The position numbers and the translations under genes were made by a program. 24,593 bases of DNA from a virus: the IMG/VR virus record IMGVR_UViG_3300039106_000185, positions 1 through 24,593 of that record; one strand, given 5' to 3'. Below the pieces are notes generated by a model. The model did no database searches, was not told where the DNA came from, and worked only from the letters and a program-made list of their open reading frames with translations. Position 1 is the stretch's first letter, and each line of letters opens with the position of its first letter. This document shows, piece by piece, positions 6,798 to 24,034 of the stretch.

Positions 6798-7325
6798 ATG
6801 GCTATTTTAGGAGTCGATGACTTCAAGTCAAAACTAAAAGGTGGCGGCGCTAGAGCAAACCTGTTCAAAGCGACGATCAACTTTCCAAGATACGCTGGGG
6901 GTGATGTCGAACTGACATCATTCCTCTGCGAGGCAGCTCAGTTGCCTGGTTCAACACTAGGGATGATTGAAGTCCCTTTCCGTGGCCGCCGTCTAAAGAT
7001 TGCTGGTGATCGCACATTTGAATCTTGGACCGTAACTATCATTAACGATACAGATTTCAAAGTCCGTAACGCAATGGAACGCTGGATGAACGGTATGAAC
7101 AATCACCAGCTAAACACTGGTTTGGTCGATCCAATTTCTTATCAGTCTGACCTATTTGTAGAGCAGCTCGATAAGAATGGAAAAGCTCTAAAGAAGTACT
7201 CATTCAAAGGTGCCTTCCCAACAGCGGTTGCTCCAATTGACCTTTCATACGCTACAGAAAATGAAATCGAAAGATTCACAGTGGAATTCCAGTATCAGTA
7301 CTGGACATCAGATACCACTAGTTAA
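6798..7325 (+). CDS. gp19: Tail tube protein gp19
   Basis: The 175-aa product matches gp19 (163 aa in T4), whose stacked hexamers form the inner tube through which DNA and the tape measure pass. Characteristic stretches are DDFKSKLKGGGARANLFKATINFP, quoted here only in part as GGGARANLFKATINFP, then EAAQLPGSTLG, VPFRGRRLKIAGDRTFE and the C-terminal strand ERFTVEFQYQYW. The ATG has an excellent ribosome binding site (AGAGGAGATATACC), which suits a highly expressed protein. It follows the sheath gene by 21 bases and was probably co-transcribed with it. Confidence 0.93.
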   Translation: MAILGVDDFKSKLKGGGARANLFKATINFPRYAGGDVELTSFLCEAAQLPGSTLGMIEVPFRGRRLKIAGDRTFESWTVTIINDTDFKVRNAMERWMNGMNNHQLNTGLVDPISYQSDLFVEQLDKNGKALKKYSFKGAFPTAVAPIDLSYATENEIERFTVEFQYQYWTSDTTS

Positions 7326-11020: not shown

Positions 11021-12340
11021 ATGACAATGGAATCATACGACAATTTGGTGAAAAAGTGGGCCCCAGTTCTTAATGAAGATACTGCCGGCGCCATTAAAGA
11101 TTCACACCGCCGCGCTGTTACAGCAGTTATCCTAGAGAATACTGAAAAGGCTCTTCGTGAAGAGCGTTCGCAGATGAGCTTCTTGAACGAAGCACCATCT
11201 ACTTCAGTTTCAAACTCTTCAGTTTCTAACTGGGATCCAGTTCTGATCTCGCTAGTTCGTCGTGCAATGCCTAACATGATTGCATACGACATCTGCGGCG
11301 TTCAGCCAATGACTGGTCCAACTGGCTTGATCTTCGCGATGAAGGCTCGTTATGGCACAGGCCAAACTTCTTCAACAGAAGCTCTATTCAACGAAGCTAA
11401 CACTGCATGGTCAGGTAACTCTGACTCAGCACAAGACTCAGACCCAGCTGGTCTATATGGTCTAACTGCTGGTTCAGATAGCAACATCAACGGCGAGCGT
11501 GCAGGTAACCCAGCATTCGCTAAGGGTGTGCGCACCGGTAAAGCTGAAGAAGCAGGTATCTTCCGCAACATGGGCTTCACCATTGAAAAAGCAACCGTTA
11601 CTGCAGTTTCACGTGCGTTGAAGGCTGACTACTCAATCGAACTAGCACAGGACTTGAAGGCAATTCATGGTCTTGACGCTGAGACTGAGCTAGCAAGCAT
11701 TCTGAACACAGAAATTCTTGCAGAGATCAACCGTGAAGTTATCCGTACGATCAACAGCCAAGCTAAGACAGGTGCTCAGCAGACTGGTCTACAAAATCGC
11801 GGTATCTTCAACCTATCAGTTGATGCTGATGGTCGTTGGTCAGCAGAAAAGTTCAAGGGTCTTCTATTCCAACTAGACCGTGAAGCAAACGTGATTTCAA
11901 AAGAAACTCGTCGTGGTAAGGGTAACTTCATCCTTTGCTCAAGCGATGTTGCTTCTGCACTTTCAGCTTCTGGTGCTCTTGACTACGCTCCAGCTTTGTC
12001 AACCAACTTGAATGTTGATGACACTGGTAACACCTTCGCTGGTATCTTGAACGGCCGTATGCGCGTCTACATCGACCCATATGCAGTTTCTGACTTCGTA
12101 ACCGTTGGTTACAAGGGTTCTAACCCATATGACGCTGGTCTATTCTACTGCCCATACGTTCCATTGACCATGGTTCGTGCTGTTGGTGAAGATGACTTCC
12201 AGCCACGTATCGGCTTCAAGACTCGTTACGGCATGGTTTCAAACCCATTCGTTGGTGCTACACCAGCAAACGGTCTTGCAACAGCTCGTACCAACCAGTA
12301 CTACCGTATCTTCCGCGTGGACAACATCCTCGTATCGTAA
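11021..12340 (+). CDS. gp23: Major capsid protein gp23 precursor
   Basis: The 439-aa protein is the HK97-fold major capsid subunit (521 aa in T4). The diagnostic segment is LVRRAMPNMIAYDICGVQPM followed by TGPTGLIFAMKARYG (about residues 78-112). The C-terminal half contains SSDVASAL, GRMRVYIDPYA and YDAGLFYCPYVPL. An N-terminal propeptide is expected. SFLNE-APSTS places an (Leu/Ile)-X-Glu cleavage site after Glu57, corresponding to the gp21 site in T4 gp23. AAGGAG lies nine bases before the ATG. Codon choice in the second half is strikingly uniform, as in a very highly expressed gene. Converging terminators follow the stop. Confidence 0.97.
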   Translation: MTMESYDNLVKKWAPVLNEDTAGAIKDSHRRAVTAVILENTEKALREERSQMSFLNEAPSTSVSNSSVSNWDPVLISLVRRAMPNMIAYDICGVQPMTGPTGLIFAMKARYGTGQTSSTEALFNEANTAWSGNSDSAQDSDPAGLYGLTAGSDSNINGERAGNPAFAKGVRTGKAEEAGIFRNMGFTIEKATVTAVSRALKADYSIELAQDLKAIHGLDAETELASILNTEILAEINREVIRTINSQAKTGAQQTGLQNRGIFNLSVDADGRWSAEKFKGLLFQLDREANVISKETRRGKGNFILCSSDVASALSASGALDYAPALSTNLNVDDTGNTFAGILNGRMRVYIDPYAVSDFVTVGYKGSNPYDAGLFYCPYVPLTMVRAVGEDDFQPRIGFKTRYGMVSNPFVGATPANGLATARTNQYYRIFRVDNILVS

Positions 12341-12345
12341 TCGGT

Positions 12346-12375
12346 ATAAAAATAGGGGGTGGATCAACCACCCCC
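12346..12375 (-). terminator. Intrinsic terminator for leftward transcription (hairpin 12355-12375)
   Basis: GGGGGTGG (12355-12362) pairs perfectly with CCACCCCC (12368-12375) around a five-base loop. Read on the - strand, the hairpin is followed by TATTTTTAT (complement of the A-rich 12346-12354 stretch), which is the T-tract of an intrinsic terminator. It would stop transcripts of the three - strand genes before they run into gp23. On the + strand the same hairpin has no T-tract. Confidence 0.75.
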
Positions 12376-12384
12376 ACACTAACT

Positions 12385-12408
12385 GGGCAGCTTCGGCTGC
12401 CCTTTTTT
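12385..12408 (+). terminator. Intrinsic terminator after gp23
   Basis: GGGCAGC (12385-12391) and GCTGCCC (12396-12402) form a perfect stem closed by a TTCG tetraloop, followed directly by six T (12403-12408). This is a textbook rho-independent terminator 44 bases after the gp23 stop. Its T-tract overlaps the stop codon of the opposing 58-aa gene. Confidence 0.92.
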
Positions 12409-12583
12409 ATTCTAGGGACTCGGTGCAGTCACAATCTGCATAGTACTCGTTCATAACAGAACCGTATGATATATCAAACTGTGCTTTCCATTGCCCAAGA
12501 AACTCTGGGTGATCCCAAGCAAGACCAAACAGAATCAAGAACCAACATTTCAGTACTATGTTCAGGTAGGTGTTAAAGATCAT
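12407..12583 (-). CDS. Small unknown protein with hydrophobic N-terminus (58 aa)
   Basis: On the - strand, ATG at 12583-12581 opens a 58-codon frame ending in TAA at 12409-12407. GAGGGA lies six bases before the ATG, and the gene follows the 26-aa peptide by ten bases in the same direction. The first 23 residues (MIFNTYLNIVLKCWFLILFG then LAW) are strongly hydrophobic and could be one membrane span or an uncleaved signal. The remainder is hydrophilic and acidic, ending in YYADCDCTESLE with two close cysteines. I do not recognise a family. Support is the promoter, ribosome binding site and polycistronic spacing; it may act at the host membrane early in infection (inference). Confidence 0.62.
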   Translation of the reverse strand: MIFNTYLNIVLKCWFLILFGLAWDHPEFLGQWKAQFDISYGSVMNEYYADCDCTESLE

Positions 12584-12593
12584 TCTGTATCCC

Positions 12594-12674
12594 TCACAGA
12601 TTGATAACGTAGATAATCATACCAACTGCAAACATTGCAGCGGCAACTACAGCGACATTTTCAAGAATCTTCAT
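12594..12674 (-). CDS. 26-aa predicted single-span membrane peptide
   Basis: On the - strand, ATG at 12674-12672 starts a 26-codon frame that stops at TGA 12596-12594. AAGGAA sits six bases before the ATG, and a promoter (TTGACT-N17-TATATT, 12730-12702) lies just upstream. After MKILEN the peptide is one hydrophobic run of Val, Ala, Ile, Met, Gly and Phe to the C-terminus (VAVVAAAMFAVGMIIYVINL), the size of one transmembrane helix. It is followed by the 58-aa gene. Small early membrane peptides are common in T4-like phages, but no specific homologue is recognised. Its strongest support is the leader shared with the 77-aa gene. Confidence 0.62.
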   Translation of the reverse strand: MKILENVAVVAAAMFAVGMIIYVINL

Positions 12675-12730
12675 GGCGTGTTCCTTCGTTTCCATACACT
12701 TAATATAGTACATCTTTGCAGTAAAGTCAA
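12672..12730 (-). repeat. Promoter/leader cassette, copy 2 (before the 26-aa peptide)
   Basis: This 59-base stretch, read on the - strand from -35 box to start codon, matches 12958-13016 at roughly 50 positions when a single base is shifted. The -35, the last ten bases of the spacer, the -10 and the AGGAACAC ribosome binding site are all shared, so the whole control unit is duplicated rather than the boxes alone. The coding sequences that follow are unrelated. Confidence 0.85.
12702..12730 (-). promoter_or_regulatory. Host-sigma70-like leftward promoter for the 26-aa and 58-aa genes
   Basis: Read on the - strand, TTGACT (12730-12725) and TATATT (12707-12702) are separated by 17 bases. The TGA stop codon of the preceding 77-aa gene lies inside the -35 box. 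The start codon of the 26-aa peptide is 27 bases downstream of the -10. Confidence 0.8.
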
Positions 12731-12960
12731 CGGGGCCAGTTCATGTTAAAGCCAACATTTGCCTCAGCATCGCGGCGAGCAGCATCAAAAGATGCAAACG
12801 GACCGGAAGAAATAACCATATCATCCAGACGACCTTTCGGAGTGTAAACCATCCACTCGTTACGATCAAACTCGTCAGTGACAATCCGGTCAATGTAAAC
12901 TTCGCGAAGAGCGTTTGTTGCCATTGCGGTGATTTCGTTAACTGATGTGAAGGTCATCAT
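12727..12960 (-). CDS. Unknown 77-aa early protein
   Basis: The frame runs leftward from ATG at 12960-12958 to TGA at 12729-12727. A longer frame extends up to 13005, but that start lies upstream of the expected transcription start of the promoter at 13016-12988. ATG 12960 also has GAGGAA seven bases before it, so I choose it. The protein is soluble, with an N-terminal helix (VNEITAMATNALREVYIDRI) and then a short strand-rich part (NEWMVYTPKGRLDDMVIS) and a helix (FASFDAARRDAEANVG). I recognise no family; the W-x-V-Y...G...F-x-S-x-x-x-A pattern is seen in various tiny phage proteins of unknown function. Confidence 0.78.
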   Translation of the reverse strand: MMTFTSVNEITAMATNALREVYIDRIVTDEFDRNEWMVYTPKGRLDDMVISSGPFASFDAARRDAEANVGFNMNWPR

Positions 12961-13016
12961 GGTTGTGTTCCTCTTTTCCATACTATAAATATAGTACATC
13001 TTCATAGTAAAGTCAA
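12958..13016 (-). repeat. Promoter/leader cassette, copy 1 (before the 77-aa gene)
   Basis: This is the partner of the 12672-12730 cassette. It runs from the -35 box to the first start codon on the - strand, with the same order of TTGACTTTACT, AAGATGTAC, TATATT, GTATGGAAA and AGGAACAC blocks. Confidence 0.85.
12988..13016 (-). promoter_or_regulatory. Host-sigma70-like leftward promoter for the 77-aa gene
   Basis: On the - strand, TTGACT (13016-13011) and TATATT (12993-12988) are 17 bases apart, near-ideal for host housekeeping sigma. The leader to the start codon is 27 bases. It lies back-to-back with the rightward late promoter at 13021-13028, four bases away. Confidence 0.82.
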
Positions 13017-13020
13017 CAGA

Positions 13021-13028
13021 TATAAATA
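13021..13028 (+). promoter_or_regulatory. T4-type late promoter (TATAAATA) before the tail-tube-fold gene
   Basis: An exact TATAAATA lies 28 bases before the start of the 13057 gene, right next to the leftward early-type promoter. Its presence argues that the downstream gene is a late virion gene, even though recombination genes follow it. Confidence 0.75.
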
Positions 13029-13056: not shown

Positions 13057-13557
13057 ATGGCAGAGCTTACCACAAATATCAACTACTTACAACCGACTGG
13101 GTTTAAGGTTGTCATCGACCGCAAGAAGTTTGGTAACCTAGAGTTCTTTGCTCAGTCTGTTGATCACCCAAATGTCTCTATTCCAACAGCAGAGCTGCCA
13201 TACAGCCGCCTTGGATTGCACGCTGCGGGTGATCGGTTGACTTTTGGACAACTATCAGCTACAATCATTCTTGATGAGAATATGTCAGCATACACAGAAA
13301 TGTATGACTGGGTCAAACGTTTGGTTGAGGAAGAAAACACTACAAAGTTTAGCACTAGATACAACAATGGTGAAACCACTGCAGTTGACATCACTGTCTC
13401 TATATTATCAAGCAGCAACAACGCTGTCAAGAGAATTAGATACTTAGATTGTATTCCAACAGACATTGGCACTATCAACTTTATGTCTAACACATCTGAT
13501 CTTCAATACCTAACCTTTACAGCATCGTTCTCGTTCTCGTACTTTGAAATAGTCTAA
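13057..13557 (+). CDS. Tail-tube-fold protein, probably gp3-like tail completion protein
   Basis: The 166-aa protein has the pattern of the phage tail-tube fold family, which includes gp19 and gp54. The N-terminus LQPTGFKVVIDRKKFGNLEF is followed by a strand-rich core and YTEMYDWVKRLVE, and the C-terminus DCIPTDIGTINF...LQYLTFTASFSFSYFEI matches the family's last strands. In the marine T4-like gene order I recall, the gene between gp23 and uvsY/uvsW is annotated as gp3, the ring capping the tube at the head end; that assignment rests on position and memory, so gp54-type or a second tube protein remain possible. A late promoter precedes it. No good ribosome binding site is seen before the ATG. 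Confidence 0.65.
   Translation: MAELTTNINYLQPTGFKVVIDRKKFGNLEFFAQSVDHPNVSIPTAELPYSRLGLHAAGDRLTFGQLSATIILDENMSAYTEMYDWVKRLVEEENTTKFSTRYNNGETTAVDITVSILSSSNNAVKRIRYLDCIPTDIGTINFMSNTSDLQYLTFTASFSFSYFEIV
13237..13265 (+). promoter_or_regulatory. Internal sigma70-like promoter upstream of uvsY-uvsW
   Basis: TTGACT (13237-13242) and TACAAT (13260-13265) are separated by exactly 17 bases inside the tail-tube-fold gene. The TTGACTTT block is shared with the leftward promoters and the gp44 promoter. It could give uvsY and uvsW, which act before late genes, a transcript independent of the late promoter at 13021. It is inside coding sequence, so codon constraint could produce part of the match. Confidence 0.5.
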
Positions 13558-16666: not shown

Positions 16667-17260
16667 ATGGCTAAACGTGAAAGTATTCATTACGTCAACA
16701 ACGCTGATTTTTCACGAGCTGTTGTTGCATACTGTACAGAACTTCAAGCGGCTAAAGCTGAACGAAAGAATGACCTACCCAAGGTTCCAAACTACATTGC
16801 CACATGCTTCCTAAAGATCTGTGAAGGACTATCTCACAAGGTCAACTTCATCCGTTACACCTATCGTGAAGAGATGGTTATGGATGCGGTTGAGAATTGC
16901 CTTCGTGCGATTGAGAACTACAATATTGAGGCTGCAACGCGTTCAGGTAACCCTAACGCGTTTGCTTATTTTACACAGATCGCTTGGTACGCATTCTTAC
17001 GACGAATAGCTAAAGAGAAGAAGCAACAAGATATTAAGCTGCGATACTTGTCTCAAAGTGGCATTGAAGAATATATCATTAATGAGACTGGAGATGTCGC
17101 CGCAACTCAAGTGTTGCAAGCATTTGTCGATCAGCTAAAAGATCGTATTGATAAAGTTAAAGAAAAGGATACTGAATTTACCCAATTTGCTCGCGAAGAA
17201 AAGGTTCGCCGCAAATATCAGATTAGTGTTGACTCAGACTTGCAGGATTTTATGGAATGA
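16667..17260 (+). CDS. gp55: Late transcription sigma factor gp55
   Basis: This 197-aa protein is the divergent sigma factor that directs host RNA polymerase to TATAAATA late promoters, together with the sliding clamp. The segment NYIATCFLKICEGLSHKVNF, then YREEMVMDAVENCLRAIENY (about 62-82) and NAFAYFTQIAWYAFLRRI, matches the gp55/sigma region 2 pattern that contacts core polymerase and the promoter. The C-terminal tail SVDSDLQDFME resembles the clamp-binding tail of T4 gp55. I choose ATG 16667, four codons after an in-frame GTG at 16655, because the N-terminus MAKRESIHYVNN then aligns with T4 and GAGA lies before it. T4 gp55 is 185 aa. It overlaps the epimerase gene as ATGA. Confidence 0.92.
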   Translation: MAKRESIHYVNNADFSRAVVAYCTELQAAKAERKNDLPKVPNYIATCFLKICEGLSHKVNFIRYTYREEMVMDAVENCLRAIENYNIEAATRSGNPNAFAYFTQIAWYAFLRRIAKEKKQQDIKLRYLSQSGIEEYIINETGDVAATQVLQAFVDQLKDRIDKVKEKDTEFTQFAREEKVRRKYQISVDSDLQDFME

Positions 17261-17976
17261 AGACAGTTCTTTTAACAGGCGCGGAGGGAATGATTGGATC
17301 CCATCTAAAGGTGTTTCTTAGAGACAAAGGGTTTGCCATTGTTGAATTTGAAGGAGATGTTTGTAGTTACAACGACTGGAACAAATATCACTCAGCAGAT
17401 TATTTAATCCATCTTGCCGCGTTTGCTGGAGTTCGTGCTTCAATTACTGAACCAGAGTTGTTTTATAATAATAATGTCGATGGTATGGATTGTGCTATCA
17501 ACTTTGCTAAGCGTAGTAAGTGTGCGTTTCTATATGCATCTTCATCTAATGCAAAAGAGTGGTGGACTAATCCATATGCTACCACAAAGAAAATGAACGA
17601 ACTGCAAGCTCGAGTATTGAACACATCAGTTGGTATGAGATTCCATACAGTATGGCCAGGTCGCGATGATATGTTGTATAAACTGCTTGCCGCTGGTAAC
17701 GTAAAGTACATCAACGGCGATCACTACAGAGACTTCATTCATATTGATGATTTGTGCACAGCCATCTTGACTATTATGGAAAACTATAGTAATATGAGTA
17801 AGGTAGTGGATATTGGTACAGGTCACGCTACACCTGTGCTTGAAGTCGCTAAGAGATTTGGCTTTGATGGTGAGGTGAGGTTTGATTCTGCTCCCCACGA
17901 AAGAACAATCACTAAGGCCGACATTGAATATCTACTGCGCCTCGGTTGGACCCCCACACGGAACATTTTAGTATGA
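17257..17976 (+). CDS. NAD-dependent sugar-nucleotide epimerase/dehydratase (short extended-SDR)
   Basis: The 239-aa protein is an extended short-chain dehydrogenase. Its Rossmann motif is TGAEGMIG (7-14), followed by IHLAAFAGVR (51-60), a Ser cluster YASSSNAK (93-100), the catalytic pair Tyr107 and Lys111 in YATTK, and DHYRDFIHIDDLC (155-167), the usual sugar-binding side. The family interconverts UDP- or GDP-linked sugars, so it may supply modified sugars for virion, DNA or host surface glycans. It is shorter than typical members (over 300 aa), chiefly in the C-terminal sugar-specificity lobe. It is locked between gp55 and gp47 by ATGA overlaps at both ends, an unusual place for a metabolic gene. 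Confidence 0.9.
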   Translation: MKTVLLTGAEGMIGSHLKVFLRDKGFAIVEFEGDVCSYNDWNKYHSADYLIHLAAFAGVRASITEPELFYNNNVDGMDCAINFAKRSKCAFLYASSSNAKEWWTNPYATTKKMNELQARVLNTSVGMRFHTVWPGRDDMLYKLLAAGNVKYINGDHYRDFIHIDDLCTAILTIMENYSNMSKVVDIGTGHATPVLEVAKRFGFDGEVRFDSAPHERTITKADIEYLLRLGWTPTRNILV

Positions 17977-23035: not shown

Positions 23036-23429
23036 CATTGTATCATGGTCACCAGCTGATATGCTGGAGATCACACTTAATGAACCGGATGATTTTTTAA
23101 AGGTTCGTGAAACGCTGACTCGCATTGGAGTAGCGTCAAGAAAAGACAAAAAGCTATATCAATCATGTCATATCCTGCACAAGCAGGGTAGATACTTCAT
23201 TGTGCACTTCAAAGAGCTATTCATGCTGGATGGTAAGAAGGCTAATCTCGAAGAGAATGATGTACTAAGACGTAATACAATCACAACATTGATTAGTGAC
23301 TGGGGGTTGGTTAATATCCAATCTGGTAAGCCATTACAATGTGCGCCATTACGTCAGATTAAGATCATCTCATTCAAAGAGAAGGATGAGTGGGAACTTT
23401 GTCCAAAGTACAACATTGGTAACAAGTAA
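23022..23429 (+). CDS. regA: Translational repressor RegA
   Basis: RegA binds ribosome-binding regions of early phage mRNAs and shuts down their translation. The region DDFLKVRETLTRIGVASRKD, followed by KLYQSCHILHKQGRYFIVHF (about 46-65), is nearly identical to the family core, and EWELCPKYNIGNK is the conserved end. I list GTG 23022 (135 aa), which has AAAAGG and GGTGAG upstream and overlaps gp62 by 14 bases. ATG 23061 gives MLEITLNEPDD and 122 aa, exactly the T4 length and alignment, but has no visible ribosome binding site; homology favours it. Its stop overlaps the next start as TAATG. Confidence 0.93.
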   Translation: MEESNIVSWSPADMLEITLNEPDDFLKVRETLTRIGVASRKDKKLYQSCHILHKQGRYFIVHFKELFMLDGKKANLEENDVLRRNTITTLISDWGLVNIQSGKPLQCAPLRQIKIISFKEKDEWELCPKYNIGNK

Positions 23430-24034
23430 TGTTCATTAAGACTGTTGACAATGCACTAGATGCAGCTACATTATCAGCTCTTGAACAAGAAGTTGAATCA
23501 CTGACGCGTTTAAACAAATGGCAAAAGACATTTGAACGGGCTGGGTCGTATATGCTAGAGGCTAATGATCTCACAGCATTACCTGCACTGCAGAATCTAT
23601 ACCATATTGTTTCGAATGCAGAGGGTTTGGAATTCATCGAATCAAACATTGGAATCGCCGGAGTGATCTGCGATCCTCATATGGTTGGTGCTGGATACAG
23701 CCAGATAAAAGATCATGGAGATCTTAAACCGCACATTGACTTCAACTGGAACGATAGATTAAAATTGCATCGCGTTGCATCCTTAATCATCTATCTGTCG
23801 ACTCCAGAAGAAGGTGGTGAGATTGAGTTTGAGAATACTGCTAAGATTGAAGTAAAGAAGAATCGCGCTGTCGTTTTTGAACACAGTGAAACAATTCGGC
23901 ACTTTGTTCATCCAGTAAAAGGTATTCGTAATGCTGTTAGATTTTTCTACTATGCATCTAAACTTCGCCCGCCAAAAGGATACCACAGAAGTTTATATGG
24001 ATTGAAAAATGGAAAACCAACAGACGTTAAATGA
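23429..24034 (+). CDS. 2-oxoglutarate/Fe(II)-dependent oxygenase (prolyl-hydroxylase-like)
   Basis: The 201-aa protein has the prolyl-4-hydroxylase-type double-stranded beta-helix. The iron ligands would be His102 and Asp104 in LKPHIDFNWN and His161 in RHFVHPVKG. Arg171 in NAVRFFYY, ten residues after the distal His, fits the 2-oxoglutarate-binding residue. LIIYLSTPEEGGEIEFEN is the typical strand between them. The substrate is unknown; phage members may hydroxylate a protein side chain or a nucleic acid base. It follows regA by TAATG overlap, where T4 places the gene 43 polymerase (after small genes), so it is an accessory insertion into the replisome operon. Confidence 0.9.
   Translation: MFIKTVDNALDAATLSALEQEVESLTRLNKWQKTFERAGSYMLEANDLTALPALQNLYHIVSNAEGLEFIESNIGIAGVICDPHMVGAGYSQIKDHGDLKPHIDFNWNDRLKLHRVASLIIYLSTPEEGGEIEFENTAKIEVKKNRAVVFEHSETIRHFVHPVKGIRNAVRFFYYASKLRPPKGYHRSLYGLKNGKPTDVK

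Follow-up and report, generated by a model that had tools for sequence, protein, structure and literature searches.

The early genes with which T4 takes over its host or excludes other phages, such as asiA and imm, encode small proteins, some of them membrane-directed, and are read from host sigma70-type promoters. T4-type phages also possess promoter early stem-loop cassettes (PeSLs), which are reportedly the subject of work by Arbiol in 2010 and Comeau in 2014. A PeSL is a composite motif, in which a stem-loop directly adjoins an early promoter. Variable regions between core modules are described for T4-type phages (PMC4503421, PMC7029224), as are the promoter/stem-loop cassettes (PMC4503421). 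Many of the genes carried on early T4 transcripts have no known function (PMC2988021).

The locus analyzed here belongs to a 24.6-kb virus record of a T4-type phage (IMG/VR record IMGVR_UViG_3300039106_000185; the whole stretch of 24,593 nt is referred to below as the window). Its gp23 shares 65% identity with the homolog in phage C48C1, and ~58–60% with the homologs in Methylophilales phage Melnitz and Pelagibacter phage HTVC008M; a literature search for phage C48C1 or comparable early islands returned no papers. The original prediction, made from the sequence of the window, placed three leftward open reading frames of 77, 26 and 58 aa between the gp23 major capsid gene (11021..12340, + strand) and a gene with the tail-tube fold (phrog_45; 13057..13557, + strand; followed by uvsY), and all three are present there. 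The tube-fold gene at 13057–13557 is one of two in this phage; the other, a tail-tube gene, lies at 6798–7325, and the two are weak paralogs (~24% identity). The gene at 13057–13557 is itself mosaic: it shares 67% identity with its counterpart in L081, despite 100% for the flanking gp23 and 93% for uvsY, and it is 92% identical to those of L149 and L150, but 66% to those of L151 and L152. Elsewhere in the window we noted a gene for an NAD-dependent epimerase/dehydratase amid the replication genes (17257–17976) and, further on, one for a 2OG-Fe(II) oxygenase (23429–24034).

The promoter-proximal gene of the island, p77, occupies 12960..12727 on the - strand; mechanically its ORF extends to 92 aa from 13005, and the start with the ribosome-binding site AGAGGAAC gives the MMTF N-terminus. 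It is followed by p26 (12674..12594, - strand; mechanical ORF of 39 aa from 12713), which encodes a single-helix micropeptide, and by p58 (12583..12407, - strand), which encodes an N-terminal hydrophobic helix and a conserved tail ending in EYYADCDCTESLE. Each of the three has a ribosome-binding site, as had been claimed. Substitutions were counted against the nearest relative, L081, whose gp23 is 100% identical over the part compared. The p77 gene shows 9 synonymous and 2 nonsynonymous changes, with 9 of the 11 at third codon positions (dN/dS 0.056), and p58 shows 9 synonymous and 5 nonsynonymous changes, with 9/14 at third positions (dN/dS ~0.11). By these counts, p77 and p58 are real genes under purifying selection. 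The frame of p26 is intact in L081, with 2 synonymous changes and 1 nonsynonymous change, a gene too short for judgement by dN/dS. Frame-breaking mutations, named in the original prediction as a sign that the two shorter frames are not genes, were sought in close relatives and not found, either for the 58-aa gene or, in the one relative in which it could be compared, for the 26-aa gene. The support for p26 consists of its ribosome-binding site, promoter, hydrophobicity, intact frame in L081, and the analogous micropeptides at the equivalent place elsewhere.

Searches of Pfam and PHROGs with the p77, p26 and p58 sequences of the window gave nothing above noise. When p77 and p58 were compared by tblastn with 50,697 phage records, cultured phage records included, no real match emerged. 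The earlier view that these proteins match no family thus holds for the curated libraries (Pfam, PHROGs), but not among uncultured phages, where both p77 and p58 have families. The p77 family is encoded at 60 IMG/VR loci, from which 31 distinct homologs were aligned; they have in common the motifs MMTF, P.G.L and GPF..F..A.R.AE..VG, usually with MNW near the end. Matches of these 31 homologs to Pfam and PHROGs were scattered and weak. Some other contigs have a member of the family as the leading gene of an operon that is not next to gp23. All 10 matching long contigs carry it in a single copy, which rules out a multi-copy paralog family. The predicted structure comprises a beta-sheet and a C-terminal helix (pLDDT 78.5), and on this model p77 would be a small soluble protein; comparison of the fold revealed no convincing match (Foldseek best E 0.02 to an uncharacterized viral protein and 1.6 in the PDB; VIA-align best Z 5.0). 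The p58 family, encoded at 19 IMG/VR loci, is represented in our alignment by 18 distinct homologs, in which a variable hydrophobic helix precedes a conserved tail, typically EYYADCDCTE.LE. For p58 two helices are predicted with moderate confidence, of which the first is hydrophobic. Among PHROGs the 18 homologs have only scattered weak matches, the best being to phrog_8923, a family of unknown function that 3 members match with E 0.001. Bacterial and archaeal genomes yielded no confirmed homolog of p77 or p58, and linkage therefore points to no host. In L153–L157, p58-family genes occur where no core gene of the window was recognized nearby. Several of these come after a stretch resembling a 42-aa micropeptide gene, and because of this the two may move together as a pair.

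Two of the three products had been described as hydrophobic, and these are p26 (Kyte-Doolittle 2.36 over 19 residues) and, moderately, p58 (1.68–1.93 over 19 residues); hydrophobic helices occur in both, as well as in the analogous micropeptides of other phages. A search for distant homologs with the p26 core pattern found it only in the contig of L081, which leaves p26 with one homolog. The place that it occupies is variable: L081 keeps p26 itself, and many other relatives have different single-helix micropeptides. One of these, a conserved 29-aa peptide of the typical pattern MTAAIIPVVFLVVIVF.GAIIETF.EE.N, is present in 23 contigs, starts within the p77 stop codon in most of them, and shows pN/pS of 0.41 (14 distinct full-length sequences). 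Other occupants are a 42-aa or a second kind of 29-aa single-helix peptide, and in some relatives the place holds soluble-looking genes.

The expectation of small leftward genes with sigma70-type promoters within a late region was borne out at two sites. The first early-like promoter (TTGACT-N17-TATATT) lies at 13016..12988 on the - strand, and its near-copy at 12730..12702 (- strand) contains the stop codon of p77 inside its -35 box. The 29-nt pattern common to both has 2 matches in the window, as compared to 0.01 expected by chance, and no third match. The first promoter stands back to back with a T4-type late promoter box of the tube gene, TATAAATA (13021..13028, + strand), a box present ahead of this gene at 49/53 loci regardless of the cargo. 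At the other end of the operon, the leftward intrinsic terminator hairpin GGGGGTGGTTGATCCACCCCC with its T-run (12355..12375, - strand) converges with the rightward terminator of gp23, GGGCAGCTTCGGCTGCCC, likewise followed by a T-run (12385..12402, + strand). Terminator-like hairpins are confined to 12355–12402, except for a weak match of 5 pairs within p58, and none lies beside either promoter. The signals recur in relatives. A -10 box is located 24–38 nt upstream of the p77 ATG in 21/24 non-redundant loci, and 58% of the p77 upstream regions, vs 3.6% of shuffles, reach a sigma70-type promoter score of at least 9.5 of 12. In the same contigs no region upstream of gp23 or of the tube gene reaches 9.5 of 12; 40% of ten uvsY upstream regions do. 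Since the uvsY upstream regions score fairly high too, sigma70-type promoters are no clean mark of early timing. The leftward terminator, counted if within 130 nt of the gp23 stop, was found in 22/29 loci with leftward cargo vs 5/26 without; the corresponding Fisher p of 4e-5 is a rough guide only, as the loci were assigned to the two groups manually and related loci do not count as independent.

Across related contigs the gp23-tube interval ranges from 73 bp to ~4.5 kb, with differing contents, and many relatives have the slot without the island. An empty slot measures ~73–150 bp, and in the 73-bp case holds little beyond the gp23 terminator and the late box; the interval from gp23 to the next gene is 88 bp in cultured C48C1 and 95 bp in Melnitz-3. 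The cargo comprises leftward operons of small genes, larger genes, and rightward genes (the latter e.g. in HTVC008M and DLP_6), and is often leftward. In L007, L020 and L075, genes for 2OG-Fe(II) oxygenases and for a D12 DNA adenine methyltransferase are among the leftward cargo. The succession of p77, a single-helix micropeptide and p58 is kept in that order in several lineages. L149–L152 (gp23 91–98% identical) lack p77 and retain p58 together with the gp23 terminator. Their slot also holds genes for a 29-aa micropeptide and for a 159-aa protein in which an HExxH motif occurs, besides further small genes. The 159-aa gene has its own sigma70-type promoter and looks SprT-like by eye, with no Pfam match. 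Judged from these comparisons, the gp23/tube junction serves repeatedly as an insertion slot, with fast exchange of cargo. The original prediction spoke of genes that had entered a late region; the island does lie in one, but in place of a simple single entry we find a slot that is reused.

Segment-by-segment identities are mosaic. L001 and the window are 86% identical in gp23, 89% in the promoter region and 97% in the terminators, and 61% in both p77 and p58. Compared with the distant L130, L001 has 75% identity in gp23 and 51% in the promoter region, yet 94% in p77 and 89% in p58. L001 and L084 share 98% in gp23, 95% in the promoter region, 99% in the terminators and 94% in p58, and p77, at 72%, is the sole differing segment among those compared from the promoter to gp23. 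Thus, the alignments indicate that the coding cargo is replaced, en bloc or gene by gene, while the promoter and the terminators stay with the resident phage. Promoter copy 1 in the window and copy 2 in L081 agree at 30/30 nt, and the adjoining 30 nt follow position (first copy of the window equal to first copy of L081, 30/30); the promoter cores look as if they had been exchanged between the two copies by recombination.

We regard the island as probably a small accessory operon, likely expressed early, which an uncultured T4-type phage carries in a recurrent slot, with the late genes gp23 on one side and tube/uvsY on the other. The reality of p77 and p58, their families, the slot, the exchange of cargo and the layout of signals are shown by the sequences themselves; the early timing, membrane location and function of the island genes are what we infer. 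In the mechanism that we propose, the host RNA polymerase would read leftward soon after entry from the promoter at 13016, and again from the copy at 12730, through p77, p26 and p58, and the transcript would stop at the hairpin at 12375–12355. The phage late polymerase would later read rightward, end gp23 at its own hairpin and restart at the late box at 13021, with the convergent terminators and back-to-back promoters holding the two programmes apart. Recombination with other phages would swap the coding cargo, and the promoter and paired terminators would remain. The p26 and p58 products are predicted to go to the host inner membrane, and the likeliest role that we can suggest, tentatively, is early conditioning of that membrane, e.g. 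superinfection exclusion or a block of a membrane-linked defence, varying with the host. Such a role is not general to leftward islands, because some of them encode soluble proteins. More speculatively still, p77, the single-helix micropeptide and p58 could form one early membrane-directed system, with the acidic, conserved CxC tail of p58 carried on an exchangeable membrane helix, p77 acting as a soluble partner or regulator, and the micropeptide tuned to the membrane target of each host; if this doubtful idea were true, the phage would possess a membrane effector that is modular, specific to the host and without known relative.

The slot might instead be a passive one, in which a gap between a terminator and a promoter accepts any insert, and the genes are moron-type, weakly useful, quickly turned over and devoid of a common membrane role. 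The diversity of the contents (2OG-Fe(II) oxygenase, D12 methyltransferase, HExxH protein, unknown soluble genes) and the lack of the island in many relatives fit this explanation, which we nevertheless consider rather unlikely, given the purifying selection on p77 and p58 and the joint recurrence of p77, a single-helix micropeptide and p58 in a fixed order. Short, hydrophobic, single-helix products could also suggest small holin- or antiholin-like proteins encoded outside the lysis cassette, but the genes lie behind a leftward sigma70-type promoter and not a late box, and the Pfam and PHROG searches returned no holin matches; we consider a function in lysis very improbable. Finally, a leftward promoter that faces a late gene and abuts its late box might produce an RNA that is functional by itself, an antisense or interfering transcript restraining gp23 or the tube gene early, with the reading frames incidental. 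Selection on p77 and p58 acts at the protein level, however, the transcript should end at its terminator before gp23, and the whole island is missing in many relatives, so we give this idea equally little credence.

With the T4 asiA/imm-type genes the island shares, by analogy, small proteins, some of them predicted to be membrane-directed, and host sigma70-type promoters, one of which lies upstream as in T4-type early genes. Unlike them, it is found between gp23 and uvsY and not in the early gene clusters, and no sequence relation was detected; in particular, no Pfam family, and no convincing PHROG family, of the Imm exclusion type or otherwise, was found for p26 or p58. With the PeSLs (PMC4503421), the likeness consists in repeated early-type promoters and hairpins bordering shuffled small genes in a T4-type phage: the early sigma70-type promoter of the island is present in more than one copy (two near-copies), and there is a sign of recombination between them. 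The island differs in having no hairpin beside the second promoter copy, since its two hairpins lie beyond the last gene and converge there, and in that the promoter and terminator are resident and the coding cargo is mobile. With neither promoter accompanied by a hairpin, the composite promoter and stem-loop feature is absent, and we do not class the island as a PeSL.

T4-type cyanophages and pelagimyophages have hyperplastic or hypervariable regions, in which variable accessory genes likewise lie between conserved core modules (PMC7029224, PMC4503421), and variable gene content between syntenic core genes of related phages is what we observe at gp23-tube. The slot differs from them in being small, tightly bounded (gp23 to uvsY), and often leftward and early-type, and it differs in place from the gp15-gp18 and VrlC-gp14 regions described for such phages. 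Libraries built largely on cultured phages lack the two protein families and the conserved 29-aa micropeptide described here, and the comparisons show natural phages swapping cargo, even single genes, between fixed regulatory ends. The gp23-to-uvsY slot is a simple handle by which metagenomes can be searched for micropeptides that are candidates for early, host-directed action. It also lends itself to a natural test of how early genes are placed in late regions of T4-type phages without disturbing either programme. In kind, the island is akin to the hyperplastic regions and promoter cassettes already described for T4-type phages, and the protein families that it carries are new.
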